Origin: Gulosibacter sp. 10
GTDB lineage: Bacteria > Actinomycetota > Actinomycetes > Actinomycetales > Microbacteriaceae
Length of the DNA: 64,000 bases
Direction of reading: 5' to 3'
Assembly (NCBI RefSeq): GCF_900163695.1
Contig: NZ_FUIC01000021.1
Coordinates: 1-64,000 of the forward strand
Part shown: positions 9,838-64,000 of the stretch, in pieces
Layout: every line of letters starts with the position of its first letter
Position numbering within the stretch: the first letter of the stretch is position 1
The notes under the pieces: generated by a model
Databases searched by the model: none
The model's input: the letters and a program-made list of their open reading frames with translations, nothing else
What the model was told of the DNA's origin: nothing
Made by a program: the position numbers and the translations under genes

Positions 9838-10347
9838 CTAGCTGTCCTCCAGCAGGCCCTGGAGCTTCGCCCAGCGCGGGTCGATCTCGTCGTCGGTCTC
9901 GGGCAGCGGCTCGGTGAGCTTCTCCCCCGTCTTGGGGTCGAGGCCCAGGCAGTCGGGCTTGCACAGCGGGGCGAACGGGAGATCGGCCACGACCACGTCG
10001 CGGATGGGCCCCTCGAGATCCACGGACTCGTCCGCGACGAGGTACTCGACGGATTCGTCGGGCAGGTAGCTGTAGAGCTCGGTGATGCTCCCCGTCCACG
10101 GCCGCTCGAGCGGGTCGAGGCAGCGGCTGCACTCGCCGGTGAAGGTCCCGGAGACCTGGGCGGTGGCGAGGATGCCGTCGACGAGCGTCTCGAGACGCAG
10201 GTCGACCTCGAGCTCCGCGCCCTTGTCGAAGTAGATCAGCCCCTCGCCGATCCGCTCGGGGACGACGAGGTCGAGCTCCAGCTCCCGCATTGTGCCTGGC
10301 CGGTTGATCATGCTGGCCACGTTCACGGCATACGGTGAAGTTGTCAT
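9838..10347 (-). CDS. YceD/DUF177 family protein (23S rRNA accumulation)
   Basis: This 169-residue member of the DUF177 family (YceD, needed for 23S rRNA accumulation in E. coli) lies upstream of rpmF in many bacteria. A cysteine pair in GECSRCLDP and a second pair in CKPDCLGLDP form the family's probable metal site. The C-terminus (DPRWAKLQGLLE) is conserved in actinobacteria. About 200 bases separate it from rpmF. Confidence 0.88.
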   Translation of the reverse strand: MTTSPYAVNVASMINRPGTMRELELDLVVPERIGEGLIYFDKGAELEVDLRLETLVDGILATAQVSGTFTGECSRCLDPLERPWTGSITELYSYLPDESVEYLVADESVDLEGPIRDVVVADLPFAPLCKPDCLGLDPKTGEKLTEPLPETDDEIDPRWAKLQGLLEDS

Positions 10348-10380
10348 GCCCCGAGTCTACGCCCCGGGGCCCCGCCGGAC

Positions 10381-10884
10381 TCAGATGGCGATGTTCGGGT
10401 CCGTGTCGCCCTGCAGGAAATCGCGGACCACATTCGGCACGTACGGCGATACATCGCCGCCGAGCTTCGCGACCTGGCGGACGAGCGAGCTCGACACGTG
10501 CGCATGCAGCGGGTTCGGCATCATGAACATCGTCTCGATCCGCGCGAGGTTGCGGTTGACGATGGCCATGGGCGTCTCGTAGTCCACGTCGTTCGAGCCG
10601 CGGACGCCCTTGACGATGACGCTGGCGCCGATGTCGGTGCAGTAGTCGACGAGCAGCCCCACGCTCCACGAGCGCACGACGATGTTCGTCGGCGCCCCGG
10701 TCTCCACGAGCGCCTGCTCGATGAGCTCGACTCGGCGCGCGATGGGGATCATCGCCTGCTTGTCGGGGTTGTGGACCACGAGGACGTGCACCTCGTCGAA
10801 CACGTTCGCCGTGCGCGTGATCACGTCCACGTGACCGAGCGTGACGGGGTCGAAGGATCCCGGGACTACTGCAATGTTCGACAT
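10381..10884 (-). CDS. coaD: Phosphopantetheine adenylyltransferase
   Basis: This enzyme makes dephospho-CoA from 4'-phosphopantetheine and ATP in coenzyme A synthesis. The product is 167 residues. The nucleotidyltransferase T/HxGH motif appears as TLGH with H18 after GSFDPV, and the second motif is the HVSSSLVR segment near the C-terminal third. The ATG at 10884 gives the expected N-terminus [13 protein letters not shown]. It is encoded just upstream of yceD on the same strand, with about 33 bases between. Confidence 0.96.
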
Positions 10885-10969
10885 GGTCTCTATCGTATGT
10901 CGTCCCGGGCTGGAAGCTTCGTGCGGCCTGCCTGAAGAATGACGACCGCACGAAGCATTTGCCCAATCG

Positions 10970-12190
10970 CTAGCCCTCCGCGAAGAGCTGCTCGCCGACG
11001 AATCCGCCCGGGGGCGCGGCCGGCGGGATCGCGAACACCGCCGAACCGACCGGCGCCGTCCATTCGTTGAGCAGGTCCGCCTCGGCGAGCCGCTGCTGGA
11101 CGGGCGCGAACTGCGCGACGGGATCCGCCTGGTACGCGCCGAACAGCAGCCCCGAATCCGAGACCTCCGCCCCGGCGCCGCCCGCGTCCGCGACCGGATG
11201 GTCGTAGTTGTAGGCAACCCGGTGGAAGCGCTCCCTCGGGTCCTCGCTGCGGGCCCGGCGCAGGTGGCTGACCGGGTTGATCACGGTGAAGCCCTGCGCC
11301 GTCACCGCCTCGAAGTCGGGCTCGTCGCGCTCCTGCGCGCCCGTGAGCGGCGCGCCGGTGTCCAGCCGCCGCCCGACGGCCGCCTCGCGCCCCGGCAGAT
11401 CCACCTCGTCCCAGGTCTCGAGGTCCATGCGGATGCGGCGCAGCACGAAGCTCGTGCCGCCGAGGAGCCACGCGGGCCCCTCGGAGATCCAGACGAGCTC
11501 GTCGAACTCCTCGGTGCCGGGCAGCGGGTTCGCGGTGCCGTCGATCTGCCCGAAGAGGTTCCGCTGGGTCGTGCCCGGCGCCAGGGAGCCCCGGGCGTTG
11601 CGGAATCCGGGCTGCTGCCAGCGGATGCGCCCGAACGCGCGCACGTCCTTGAGCAGCATCCGCTGCGCGTGGGCGAGCGTGAGCGGATCGTCGCACGCCA
11701 CGAGCAGCAGGAGATCCCCGCCCGACCATCGCTCCTCGAGCCGATCGACGGAGAACGCCGGCAGCGGGGCGAGCCAGTCGGGGGCGCCGTCCTCGTCCAC
11801 GCGCCGCACGAGCCCGCGGCCGAAGCCGATGGTGATCGCGAGCCCCGCAGGCACCTCGGCCATCTGCGGCTCCTGGTCGCCGATCGGCGCGTAGCCGGCC
11901 ATGAGCCGGCTCGCGTCGTCGGTGAGGATGCGCAGCAGCGAGCGGATGCGCTCCCGGTCGACCCGCTCGTCGAGATCCACGGCGATGTGCACGGCATGCG
12001 CGGGAGGGTCCGTGCGAAGCCCGGGCTGGTGCCCGTCCTCGCCCGGCGTCCGCTCCGCGCCGAAGGGCTCCGGCCCGGCCTGCTGCCGGACGGCGGCGCC
12101 GCCCGCGAGCACGACCGCGGCGCCGACGCCGACGCCGGCCGCGCCGACGAGCACATCCCGTCGGCGCGGCCCTTCATGACGCCCGGCCAT
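10970..12190 (-). CDS. Tat-exported Dyp-type peroxidase (EfeB-like)
   Basis: This 406-residue heme peroxidase has an N-terminal twin-arginine signal ([15 protein letters not shown]), so it is exported folded with heme. The DyP motif GxxDG appears as GQIDGTAN, and the proximal heme histidine is in SHLRRA. EfeB of the EfeUOB ferrous-iron system is the closest known functional model, but no efeU or efeO is nearby. The gene instead follows a PCuAC copper chaperone and CopC, and its ATG shares one base with the upstream stop, so it is probably translated as part of that operon. DyP as a copper-linked enzyme is an inference from context. Confidence 0.9.
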
Positions 12191-12726
12191 CAGTGGCCGC
12201 CGTGGTCGCCGTGCTCGGAGTCGGGCGCGTAGGTCTCCTGCGCCCCCGTGTACTCCTTCGCCTGCGCCGTGAACTCGTGCTCGGCGCCGTCGGCGGTCGT
12301 GACGGTCACGACGATCTCGTCGCCCGGCAGGATCTCGCGATCGAGATCCATGAGCATGATGTGGTTCCCGCCGGGCTCGAGCGCGAGCTCCTCCCCCGCG
12401 GGGATGGTGAAGCCGCCCTCCACCTCCTGCATCACGCTCGACCCGTCGGACTGCGTGATCGTCTCGTGGAGCTCGACCATCCCCGCGAGCTCGGCGTCCG
12501 CGGCGACGATCCGCAGGGGCTCGTCGCCGGTGTTCTCGATGGTGCCGAAGACCCCGGTCATCTCGGTGTCGGTCGCCTTGATCCACGGATCGGCGATGGC
12601 GAGGGCCCCGCTCTCTTGGATCGGGGCGTGATCTTCCGCCGCATCCTCCGCCTCGGCGCAGCCGATGAGGGCGAATGCGGCAATGGTTGACAGCGCGGCG
12701 AGACGCCGCGCGATTCCGATGTGCAT
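12190..12726 (-). CDS. PCu(A)C copper chaperone, predicted lipoprotein
   Basis: This 178-residue PCuAC domain protein carries Cu(I) outside the membrane, for example to the CuA site of cytochrome oxidase. The signal peptide ends in a lipobox (ALIGC, cysteine 23), so it is probably lipid-anchored. The copper site is readable as H in VELHETITQ, M in SSVMQEV, and H-x-M in GGNHIMLMD. The acidic, histidine-rich tail (SEHGDHGGH) may help bind metal. It sits between copC and the DyP gene, in line with copper handling. Confidence 0.9.
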   Translation of the reverse strand: MHIGIARRLAALSTIAAFALIGCAEAEDAAEDHAPIQESGALAIADPWIKATDTEMTGVFGTIENTGDEPLRIVAADAELAGMVELHETITQSDGSSVMQEVEGGFTIPAGEELALEPGGNHIMLMDLDREILPGDEIVVTVTTADGAEHEFTAQAKEYTGAQETYAPDSEHGDHGGH

Positions 12727-12748
12727 TGTGTGTGTTCCGTACCTTCGT

Positions 12749-13414
12749 CTAGGACTCGGTACCGGAGGCGTCCTCGTCCTCGTTCGGGCTGCTCGGCTTG
12801 CTCAGCCGCCGGATCGCGAACACGATGATCGTGCCGACCACGACGATGCCGATGATCCCGATGATCGGGGTCGGGTCGAACCGCCCGCCCTCGTCCTCGG
12901 CGGCGTCCTGGGCGGGCCCGGCCTCGAACGAGGGCTCCTGCGAGCTGTTGCCGAACGAGCCGCCGGTCTCGGCCGGCGCGCCGCCGCCCGCGACGACGAA
13001 GTCGATCGTGCCCGAGATCGGGTGGCCGTCCTGCGAGACGATGCGCCAGTTGAGCGCGTACTCGCCTGCTTCGAGCGCCGGCAGCGGCTGCGTGATCGTG
13101 TCGTAGCTGATGCTCAGCTCCTCCTCGAAGGGGATGACCTCGCCGTCGGCGCCCTGGAGCGCGAGCTCCGCGCCGATCTCGATCACCTCCGCAGAGAACT
13201 GCAGCGTCGCCTCGCCCGGCGACTCCTCCAACTCCTCGCCGGGCTGCGGCGAGGAGTCGATGAGCTGGTCGTGCGCCGAGGCGCTGCCCGCCGCCGGGAC
13301 GACGACGAGCAGCGCCGCGAGCAGCAGCGTTGCGAACAGGATGAACTGGGTCTTACGGATGCGTAGACGCAAGGGATGCTCCGGTACGTGAGTTGAAAAT
13401 GATGATGTGCTCAT
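12749..13414 (-). CDS. CopC domain copper-resistance protein with C-terminal anchor
   Basis: The product is 221 residues from an ATG at 13414. A signal peptide ends ...AGSASA, leaving a mature N-terminal histidine (HDQLIDSSPQPGEEL), the copper ligand of CopC. The CopC beta-barrel follows (LEAGEYALNWRIVSQDGHPISGTIDF contains the conserved W, D-G-H-P and G). After a low-complexity linker, a transmembrane helix (GIIGIVVVGTIIVFAI) and a basic tail anchor it. It probably passes copper among extracellular carriers, with PCuAC directly downstream. Confidence 0.9.
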   Translation of the reverse strand: MSTSSFSTHVPEHPLRLRIRKTQFILFATLLLAALLVVVPAAGSASAHDQLIDSSPQPGEELEESPGEATLQFSAEVIEIGAELALQGADGEVIPFEEELSISYDTITQPLPALEAGEYALNWRIVSQDGHPISGTIDFVVAGGGAPAETGGSFGNSSQEPSFEAGPAQDAAEDEGGRFDPTPIIGIIGIVVVGTIIVFAIRRLSKPSSPNEDEDASGTES

Positions 13415-13455
13415 GGCAGCCGTGCCGAGGCGGGACGCCGTCGGCAGGGCCGCGC

Positions 13456-14073
13456 TCACGCGAGGGCCGGAGGGCCCCTCCTGCGGATCGCCTCGGCGGT
13501 GCGGGCGCTCAGCGGACGGATGAGGGTCCCGAACCCGGTGCGGGGCCGCGCGGCGGGGATCGGCCGGGGTCCCGCCGTGCGGACGAGCCGCACGAGTCTG
13601 TCGACCGCAGCGTGGCAGCCGCGCAGGATGCGTCGGAGCAGCGCTTCGCCGTACCAGACGAGCCCTACGGTGGCGAGCGCCGCGAGCAGGTGCGCGCCGA
13701 GCATCCAGCCCCCGGCCGCCTCGGCCGCCGGCGCGACCAGGTGCAGCGCCCCGGTCTCGAAGTGGTGGGCGTGGGTGTCGACGCCCGGCGCGGAGACGCC
13801 GGAGAGATCCGTGGCCGTGAAGAACGCGTGGAACAGCGCCTGGCTCGACAGGATCGCGAGCGCCGAGCGGAGTCGGCTGAACCGGCGCCCGATGAGCGGC
13901 ACCGAGATCGCGGCCGCGAGCACGACGGCGACGAGCAGCACGGCCGGCTCCGGGTCGTGCCCGTGGGCGGCACCGTGGAGGGCGGCGGCCGGCGCCGTCG
14001 CGACGACGGCGAGCGCCCAGCCGCGGGCGAGCATGCGCGGGCCACGACCGCTGTGCCGCACGCGCTCATCCAT
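13456..14073 (-). CDS. Multi-pass membrane protein of the copper cluster
   Basis: The 205-residue protein starts MDERVRHSGRG and has about four to five hydrophobic segments. Several histidines lie between helices (HGAAHGHDPEP, DTHAHHFETGALH), suggesting metal binding. Its position immediately upstream of copC (42 bases) suggests a role in copper handling, analogous to CopD partners of CopC, although I cannot recognise the CopD fold. The C-terminal third is basic. Confidence 0.65.
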   Translation of the reverse strand: MDERVRHSGRGPRMLARGWALAVVATAPAAALHGAAHGHDPEPAVLLVAVVLAAAISVPLIGRRFSRLRSALAILSSQALFHAFFTATDLSGVSAPGVDTHAHHFETGALHLVAPAAEAAGGWMLGAHLLAALATVGLVWYGEALLRRILRGCHAAVDRLVRLVRTAGPRPIPAARPRTGFGTLIRPLSARTAEAIRRRGPPALA

Positions 14074-14211
14074 GCCTCCGAGTCTACTGCGAAGACGACT
14101 CCGGCAGGGTCCCGATTCCGCGCTTCCCCGCCCGGCGCGACTACGCTCTCGGGAAGACGCCTCGCACCAGCCCGAGCGGGTGCGGGGGCGGGCCGACGGA
14201 GGTGGTGGCGC

Positions 14212-14694
14212 ATGCGAGGACCGGGCGCGCTGTTCGCGGCGTGGACGCTGCACGACGTCGAGGAGGCGGTCGCGTTCCCGCAGACCTGCGATCGCCTCGC
14301 CGACCGCACCGGCGCCGAGCGGCTGCGGATGGACGGCCGCCAGTCCTGGGCCGCGGTCGGGATGATGGCGGTCCTGGTGGGCACCTCGTGCCTGCGCGGG
14401 GAGCGCACGCGCGGGCGCTCCCGCCTCTACCGCGCCGTGCTCGCCGGGCTGGAGGCGCACGTGGGCACCCACCTGATCGCCTCCGCCGTGCTGCGCGGCT
14501 ACACGGCAGGGGTCGCCACGGCGGTGCCCGTGATGCTGCCCGGCGCGGTGCTCGCCCGGCGCGAGCTCGAGCGGCGCGGCGCCCCGCTCCGCAGCCGCGA
14601 GTACGCCGTCGGCGCCGCCGTGCTCATACCCGCGGCGCTGCTGTGCCATCTCCTCGCCCGGCTCCTGCCCGCGAAGACGCGCACCCGGCGCTGA
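14212..14694 (+). CDS. HXXEE motif membrane protein
   Basis: This 160-residue protein carries the HXXEE signature (H14-D-V-E17-E18) near the N-terminus, followed by three to four hydrophobic helices (AVGMMAVLVGTSC, VAVPVMLPGAVLA-like segments and LIPAALLCHLLARLL). The family is uncharacterised, and the motif is suggestive of a metal-dependent active site. It is a single gene on the plus strand, divergent from the copper cluster and convergent with recG. Confidence 0.72.
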   Translation: MRGPGALFAAWTLHDVEEAVAFPQTCDRLADRTGAERLRMDGRQSWAAVGMMAVLVGTSCLRGERTRGRSRLYRAVLAGLEAHVGTHLIASAVLRGYTAGVATAVPVMLPGAVLARRELERRGAPLRSREYAVGAAVLIPAALLCHLLARLLPAKTRTRR

Positions 14695-63099: not shown

Positions 63100-63199
63100 G
63101 GTGGGCCAGGGCTCGTTCGTGAGAAATGCGCCCGGATCGGACAACTCCAAAGTGAATGAACGCTGCGTCGCGTCGGGGAGGAAACCCTGGTCAGGAAGT
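63100..63199 (+). promoter_or_regulatory. Probable CRISPR leader
   Basis: This is the sequence immediately before the first repeat, more AT-rich than the flank (GAGAAATGCG, CTCCAAAGTGAATGAACG). It is on the side where repeats are identical, which is the leader side because the far end is degenerate. No promoter can be fixed by eye. Confidence 0.55.
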
Positions 63200-63898
63200 G
63201 CCCTCTCCGTGTGGACGGAGGTAGGCCTGGACCAATCGTAAAGCCGCCGTCGAGGTTCGCGCCCTCTCCGTGTGGACGGAGGTAGGCCCGTCGCACCGAG
63301 CGCCACGCCCTCGAAGCCGTCGCCCTCTCCGTGTGGACGGAGGTAGGCCTGTCTGTGTCGCGGCCGAGGAACCAGTCACTGCGCCCTCTCCGTGTGGACG
63401 GAGGTAGGCCCCCGTGCGTCAGCTCCACCACGACAGAGCGGACGCCCTCTCCGTGTGGACGGAGGTAGGCCGAGGCCAAGTGAGCACGTTCAGCGAGTGG
63501 GCAAGCCCTCTCCGTGTGGACGGAGGTAGGCCGCCGCCGCCGTGCCGACCCTGTTTGACCTCGCGGCCCTCTCCGTGTGGACGGAGGTAGGCCCCTCCGC
63601 TGGCTGCACCGCGACCAGCTCGTCGAGCCCTCTCCGTGTGGACGGAGGTAGGCCTAGGGTTGATCCCCGTTACCGGGTAGTCCACTAGCCCTCTCCGTGT
63701 GGACGGAGGTAGGCCTCAACGCCAGACCCTCGGCTATATCGGCTCTACGCCCTCTCCGTGTGGACGGAGGTAGGCCGTCGACTGCTCTATCCGCTGAGCT
63801 ACGGAGGCAGCGCTCTCCGTGTGGACGGAAGTCAGCCTGCATTGTTCGCGGCGTTCGGCCATATCGGGTCGCCCCCTCCGCGTAGGCGGAAGCCCGGG
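63200..63898 (+). CRISPR. CRISPR array, type I-E-like repeats, no cas genes in view
   Basis: Twelve repeats at a period of 61 bp (28-bp repeat, 33-bp spacers). The repeat GCCCTCTCCGTGTGGACGG (first 19 of 28 bases) folds with CTCCGT/ACGGAG arms, like type I-E repeats. Repeats 1-10 (63200-63776) appear identical. Repeat 11 (63810-63837) differs at about four positions, and repeat 12 (63871-63898) is heavily degenerate, marking the trailer end. Transcription is inferred left to right. There are eleven spacers; the tenth (63777-63809) is tRNA-like. No cas gene is seen to its left, and only 100 bases remain to its right. Confidence 0.95.
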
Positions 63899-64000
63899 CT
63901 CCGGGCAGGCCGAAACGCCATTCCTGCGACGCCATGCCCGCTGGGCATCCGCGCGAATAGCCCATCCGGCACCGCGTCAGGTCGTACCAGCGGATGACAT
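63899..64000. other. Sequence after the array trailer
   Basis: One further 61-base step (63932) lands on a sequence with a small hairpin (ATGCCCGCTGGGCAT, 63934-63948), which could be a very degraded thirteenth repeat or an unrelated terminator. No gene is visible before the window ends. Confidence 0.35.

Follow-up and report, generated by a model that had tools for sequence, protein, structure and literature searches.

A CRISPR spacer resembling the 5' half of tRNA-Arg in a type I-G-like system of Gulosibacter sp. 10

CRISPR array

The window analysed here is a stretch of 64,000 nucleotides of one contig of Gulosibacter sp. 10. Near its right end lies a CRISPR array with regular conserved repeats, unique spacers and a leader junction in common with a second array of the same host. 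The features are as follows.

63186..63199, plus strand: end of the leader, CCTGGTCAGGAAGT, abutting repeat 1
63200..63898, plus strand: CRISPR array of 28-nt repeats and 33-nt spacers (61-nt unit)
63716..63748, plus strand: spacer 9
63749..63776: repeat 10, the last perfect copy, directly before spacer 10
63777..63809, plus strand: spacer 10, GTCGACTGCTCTATCCGCTGAGCTACGGAGGCA, 33 nt, whose minus strand reads as base -1 and positions 1-32 of a tRNA-Arg
63777..63784, plus strand: expected crRNA seed (positions 1-8), the complement of tRNA positions 32-25
63810..63837: repeat 11, degenerate, with 4 mismatches
63838..63870, plus strand: spacer 11, between two decayed repeats
63871..63898: repeat 12, badly decayed

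Ten perfect repeats are thus followed by a decayed pair. Spacer 10 had been placed at the decayed end of the array in the preliminary description; it does adjoin a degenerate repeat at the old end, and spacer 11 and a twelfth repeat come after it. The hairpin of the repeat has a folding energy of -14.3 kcal/mol (z -2.66). With up to 3 mismatches the repeat was found in no other genome among 398 of the family, and it had 0 matches in IMG/VR.

CRISPR-Cas systems of the host

An effector operon is located about 14 kb to the right of the array on the same contig (C5:77486-84720, equal to L130:1487-8721) and is followed by the second array.

C5:77486-78139: Cas6 (PF08798), an additional stand-alone gene
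within the operon: Cas7g/Csb1 (PF09617, 81 bits, cut-off 25)
within the operon: Csb2-like Cas5/6g (PADLOC model Cas56g, E 7.5e-29; PF09609 below the cut-off, 19 of 21 bits)
ending at C5:84720: Cas3g (TIGR02621, 556.9 bits, cut-off 400)
C5:84865-87151 (L130:8866-11152): second array, 38 repeats, after Cas3g

The operon contains the type I-G set of Cas3g, Cas7g/Csb1 and Cas5/6g (Csb2), and like known type I-G (I-U) systems it stands beside an array. It differs from them in its 28-nt repeats, in its separate Cas6, in having no Cas1 at the locus, where type I-G systems carry a Cas4-Cas1 fusion and Cas2 for adaptation, and in that no large subunit, Cas8g/Csx17, was recognised among the ORFs picked for scanning. 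The type I-G repeats described in the parts of PMC12915315 and PMC9638904 consulted are 36 nt long, whereas those of both host arrays are 28 nt. The 337-aa C-terminal part of the Cas3g ORF has no PADLOC model match up to E 1. Relatives of the Cas7g comprised one plasmid match at 28% identity and none that was confirmed in IMG/VR. The operon may possibly represent a new I-G variant. With no Cas8g/Csx17 recognised, and with Cas1 found in the host assembly at the type II-C locus alone, the system may or may not be active today.

Between the repeats of the second array and the window repeat there are at least 8 differences in 28 positions. Since the two arrays share the unit length, a similar central hairpin and the identical 14 nt preceding repeat 1, the window array is best read as a left-to-right sister array of the type I-G-like system. 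The window repeat itself has what we take to be a I-E-like appearance, and an orphan type I-E array had been considered until the I-G-like operon and the second array turned up. A search of the host for Cas5 was empty, as was one for Cse1 (0/11 genomes of the genus, host included), with searches that detected only 6 (Cas5) and 2 (Cse1) of 14 control genomes. A search with the Cas3 core gave 10 hits, all under the cut-off, the best of which was identified as Cas3g in the NCBIfam scan; the operon and the second array were found through this identification.

A second CRISPR system, apparently of type II-C, is present on another host contig (C38; L062:6740-9846 and 10229-14576). It comprises a putative Cas9 (a large ORF, assigned by reading), Cas1 (PF01867) and 47 exact 36-nt repeats.

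Targets of other spacers

Spacer 9 matches at 30/33 positions an M23-peptidase gene in the structural region of a prophage, near capsid, tape-measure and minor-tail genes, in a genome of the same genus (G325); its core had 0 matches in IMG/VR. In the second array, the spacer at L130:10359-10391 agrees at 30/33 positions with the prophage G399 (IMGVR_UViG_2866961575, 42.2 kb; loci L091 and L110), and a further spacer has hits with 2-4 mismatches to DNA methylase genes in the 3 mycobacterial phage or prophage records examined. For the other window spacers nothing convincing was seen among the phage (60 of 401) and plasmid (25 of 60) records listed. Matches to G399 that were short or weak, and possibly due to chance, were discounted: those of spacer 7 (8 mismatches), spacer 5 (15 nt) and spacer 11 (18 nt), and one of a type II-C spacer (16 nt only).

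The flanks of these targets disagree and yield no common PAM: the spacer 9 target has GAA, the G399 target CTG, and the methylase genes ATA or GTA. The site of spacer 10 would be flanked by GAA only if the anticodon were TCT. The PAMs of type I-G reported in the available portions of PMC12915315 and PMC9638904 are TTN and TAT.

Spacer 10 as a tRNA 5' half

The reverse complement of spacer 10 consists of T, GCCTCCG, TA, GCTC, AGCGGATA, GAGC, A and GTCGAC in this order. It thereby includes the 5' strand of the acceptor stem, T8-A9, the whole D-arm, position 26, and the 5' strand of the anticodon stem with C32. An Rfam scan of 63700-63900 returned nothing up to E 1. In ungapped comparison with the 45 distinct host tRNAs (47 hits), spacer 10 reached 27/33, against 18-19/33 for the other 10 window spacers and 16-21/33 for the 37 spacers of the second array. 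The mean of 150 shuffles in the same comparison was 18.1 and the maximum 21 of 33, so that the tRNA 5' half described from the sequence at the outset is borne out and a chance likeness is refuted as practically inconceivable. When the set was extended to the 149 distinct tRNAs collected, host included, spacer 10 reached 29, whereas no other window spacer exceeded 21; among the 44 host type II-C spacers, none of which was tRNA-like, the highest score was 20/28.

Four of the 45 host tRNAs contain the D-arm string GGATAGAGC, all of them tRNA-Arg, and the acceptor start GCCTCCGTA is that of the host tRNA-Arg(CCT) and tRNA-Arg(CCG). The later loci supplied 115 distinct tRNAs, with a bias, as many were fetched for their likeness to spacer 10 and a few host genes are counted again; the D-arm string is present in 33 of them, of which 31 are tRNA-Arg. 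On the strength of this string and the acceptor start, spacer 10 is almost certainly of Arg isotype, an assignment made with good confidence. The spacer ends at tRNA position 32 and therefore does not include the anticodon. Its anticodon stem (GTCGA, A31) occurs in none of the tRNA-Arg genes collected here.

Host tRNA genes and the crRNA seed

In the host assembly, which is 99.08% complete and comprises 3.65 Mb in 55 contigs, nothing but the spacer itself matches spacer 10 with up to 3 mismatches, with the reservation that a gene in the assembly gaps could escape. Targeting of the host's own tRNA gene, one of the options considered initially, is accordingly not borne out. The closest host tRNA is tRNA-Arg(CCT), with 5/32 mismatches at crRNA positions 2, 3, 5, 6 and 17, four of them in the seed as placed after the type I-G system of PMC12915315. 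The other host genes have 7/32 (tRNA-Arg(CCG)), 7/32 (tRNA-Arg(TCT)) and 8/32 (tRNA-Arg(ACG)) mismatches. Most of the mismatches of spacer 10 to the closest tRNA-Arg genes lie in the expected seed. Because the host has no near match and tRNA-Arg(CCT) is mismatched, decay of the array end, which had been proposed to explain tolerance of the spacer, is not needed. Spacer 10 is like a self-targeting spacer in resembling a housekeeping gene of the host, and unlike one in its mismatched seed and in having no host gene within 3 mismatches. Transcription of the array from left to right, a direction supported by the leader on its left, would yield a crRNA complementary to the tRNA itself, as first suggested.

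Search for the source

A survey of 398 genomes of the family (host included, drawn from a larger group) found matches with up to 3 mismatches in three others, two of the same genus as the host (G100 and G255) and one of a different genus (G041). The longest is to the tRNA-Arg(TCT) of G100 and G255, with 28 contiguous identical nucleotides including T at position -1, and 3 mismatches at crRNA positions 2, 4 and 5, in the seed. The preliminary description would have been abandoned had nothing beyond a generic D-arm been matched; the 28 contiguous nucleotides include the acceptor strand and base -1.

Phage-borne tRNAs are nearly as close to spacer 10 as the chromosomal genes of the sibling species. 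An IMG/VR contig with 21 tRNAs and a tmRNA (L102) has 27 contiguous nucleotides and 4/33 mismatches, a phage-borne tRNA that ARAGORN calls Ala (L092) has 3/32, and the tRNA-Arg(TCT) of Rhodococcus phage Francesca has 4/32. In IMG/VR, the 32-mer and the 26-nt core of spacer 10 had 0 matches each, and the 16-nt seed core was found in 6 stretches, three of them tRNA-Met genes and none a tRNA-Arg. In the GTDB r220 contigs the 26-nt core was found in one stretch (L063, Pseudomarimonas) in which no anticodon loop comes next. Partial matches were seen in the best 60 of 526 INPHARED records and the best 40 of 497 PLSDB records, none spanning the whole spacer; the best among the matches listed covered 97% of spacer 10 at 87.9% identity and 94% at 90.3%. 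An exogenous origin, as envisaged at the outset, is favoured. No gene identical at 33/33 positions was found in IMG/VR, GTDB r220, or the INPHARED and PLSDB matches listed.

One record filed as phage, MT835505.1 (L137), was dropped as evidence; the ORFs around its tRNA look bacterial by eye. Its tRNA-Arg(TCT) is identical to that of the host over 74 nt, and the record may be misfiled chromosomal DNA. The tRNA-Arg(TCT) gene varies between species of the genus (L020, L064, L065, L070, L081, L129), mostly in the anticodon stem and the D-loop.

A tRNA-splitting phage of the genus

The 5' half of a tRNA-Arg(TCT) lies at the left end of G399, and the 3' half near its right end. The left half is preceded by a putative orn gene (assigned by reading); its protein shares 94% identity with the G100 counterpart, for which reason the host of G399 apparently belongs to this genus. 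The two tRNA halves have a short core in common, and the host tRNA is not rebuilt on integration: ARAGORN calls no tRNA at the left junction and, at the right end, only a phage-borne tRNA-Arg(TCT), which directly adjoins a gene of the phage-integrase family. The phage L115 has an integrase 72% identical to that of G399 and likewise an adjoining tRNA-Arg(TCT). L116 has an integrase of 48% identity and a tRNA-Arg(TCT) near the end of the record, which could be a host gene.

With neither junction rebuilding the tRNA and a cognate phage tRNA present, the arrangement in G399 looks like tRNA-dependent lysogeny as presented by Guerrero-Bustamante and Hatfull (2024; PMC10865867), where a host tRNA is split and a tRNA of the same isotype is carried beside the integrase. 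It differs in isotype, which is Arg(TCT) in G399 and Lys, Ile2 or Leu in the phages that Table 2 of that paper marks for this mode of lysogeny, as far as its text was available. Judged from their sequences, these records show tRNA-Arg genes being carried by temperate phages of such bacteria. The replacement tRNAs themselves do not hold a near-exact protospacer of spacer 10, with 6/32 mismatches in G399 and 5/32 in L115, and both have A at base -1. The host tRNA half attached to G399 has 3 mismatches, and the chromosomal tRNA-Arg(TCT) genes of the sibling species (3/32, T at -1) fit spacer 10 better than the G399 and L115 copies.

Origin of spacer 10

The reading that we favour, with some reserve, is that spacer 10 serves against a phage or other element and was taken from a foreign, possibly phage-borne, tRNA-Arg. 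It would be a copy of a tRNA-Arg gene not native to the present genome, most probably one borne by a phage or other mobile element among related actinobacteria, and the type I-G-like system of the host would have stored it in a secondary array. The array would be transcribed from left to right, with Cas6 or the Csb2-like protein cutting its repeats, and Cas3g would be recruited to the foreign tRNA gene by the crRNA together with Cas7g/Cas5g; the tRNA-Arg genes of the host would be spared because of the seed mismatches. A temperate phage with tRNA-Arg as its integration site and a replacement tRNA-Arg of its own is a plausible source, and a tRNA-splitting prophage of this kind is present in an apparent relative of the host (G399). 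In support of a foreign element are the tRNA identity, the lack of a host copy, the matching leader junction, one prophage-matching spacer in each array, the closeness of several phage-borne tRNAs, and the tRNA-Arg(TCT) beside the integrases of G399 and L115. Against it stand the lack of an exact source, the better fit of sibling chromosomal genes than of G399 and L115, the GTCGA stem seen in none of the collected tRNA-Arg, the inconsistent flanks, and the missing Cas8g/Csx17 and Cas1 at the locus.

That better fit, over base -1 and positions 1-27 of the tRNA-Arg(TCT) of G100 and G255, is also what would be expected if the host lineage had once sampled its own tRNA-Arg gene and that gene had afterwards diverged or been exchanged, a tRNA-splitting phage being one possible agent. 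Such a relic would agree with the variation of tRNA-Arg(TCT) among species of the genus, the distance of the host's own copy from the spacer included, and with the position of spacer 10 at the old end of the array. The host tRNA-Arg(TCT) is intact, however, with no second copy or fragment in the surrounding 20 kb, the GTCGA stem is in none of the collected tRNA-Arg, and spacer 9 of the same array matches a prophage; a relic is therefore considered unlikely, though it deserves serious weight. The chromosomal tRNA of another bacterium, acquired through transformation or transduced DNA, is a less probable source still: the longest match is indeed to chromosomal genes of sibling species, but a tRNA is a tiny target, and the strongly matched spacers of the system hit phage or prophage DNA. 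CRISPR-associated transposons home near tRNA genes, according to the part of PMC11656645 seen, and spacer 10 resembles their guides in being tRNA-related and next to an atypical repeat. Together with the antisense orientation of the crRNA and the place near the array end, this might suggest a dedicated regulator or homing guide acting at a tRNA. There is no matching host tRNA to serve as the site, no transposase or other transposon gene was seen among the 9 flanking proteins scanned, and the array is a normal one with a prophage-matching spacer, which makes such a role highly improbable.

With 47 tRNA genes of roughly 75 bp each in 3.65 Mb, about 0.1% of the host genome is tRNA sequence; for a 42-kb phage that carries a single 75-bp tRNA, the share is about 0.2%. 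Among the 92 spacers of the host (11 + 37 + 44), one accidental tRNA-derived spacer is expected about 1 time in 10. Spacer 10 is uncommon yet requires no special mechanism.

Biological significance

Genes for tRNAs are among the most conserved sequences common to host and phage. A tRNA-derived spacer is a natural test of the precision with which CRISPR tells self from foreign DNA, and in the case of spacer 10 this separation would depend on a few anticodon-stem bases in the seed. In the literature covered, mostly titles and the opening lines of abstracts and including PMC6563490, PMC4053933, PMC8530359, PMC7162821 and PMC11656645, spacers against tRNA genes are not announced, which is weak evidence of their absence.

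The target of spacer 10 may be a phage of the tRNA-dependent-lysogeny kind. More speculatively, and with doubt, the spacer could strike the indispensable replacement tRNA of such a phage, in which case the divergence of the host genes in the seed would provide self/non-self discrimination and may drive the differences in tRNA-Arg(TCT) within the genus. If the source is a phage of this kind, the targeted gene could not be lost without giving up lysogeny, and close relatives would offer both sides of the conflict. A foreign tRNA-Arg gene is, whatever its carrier, an unusual target of an otherwise ordinary immune system.
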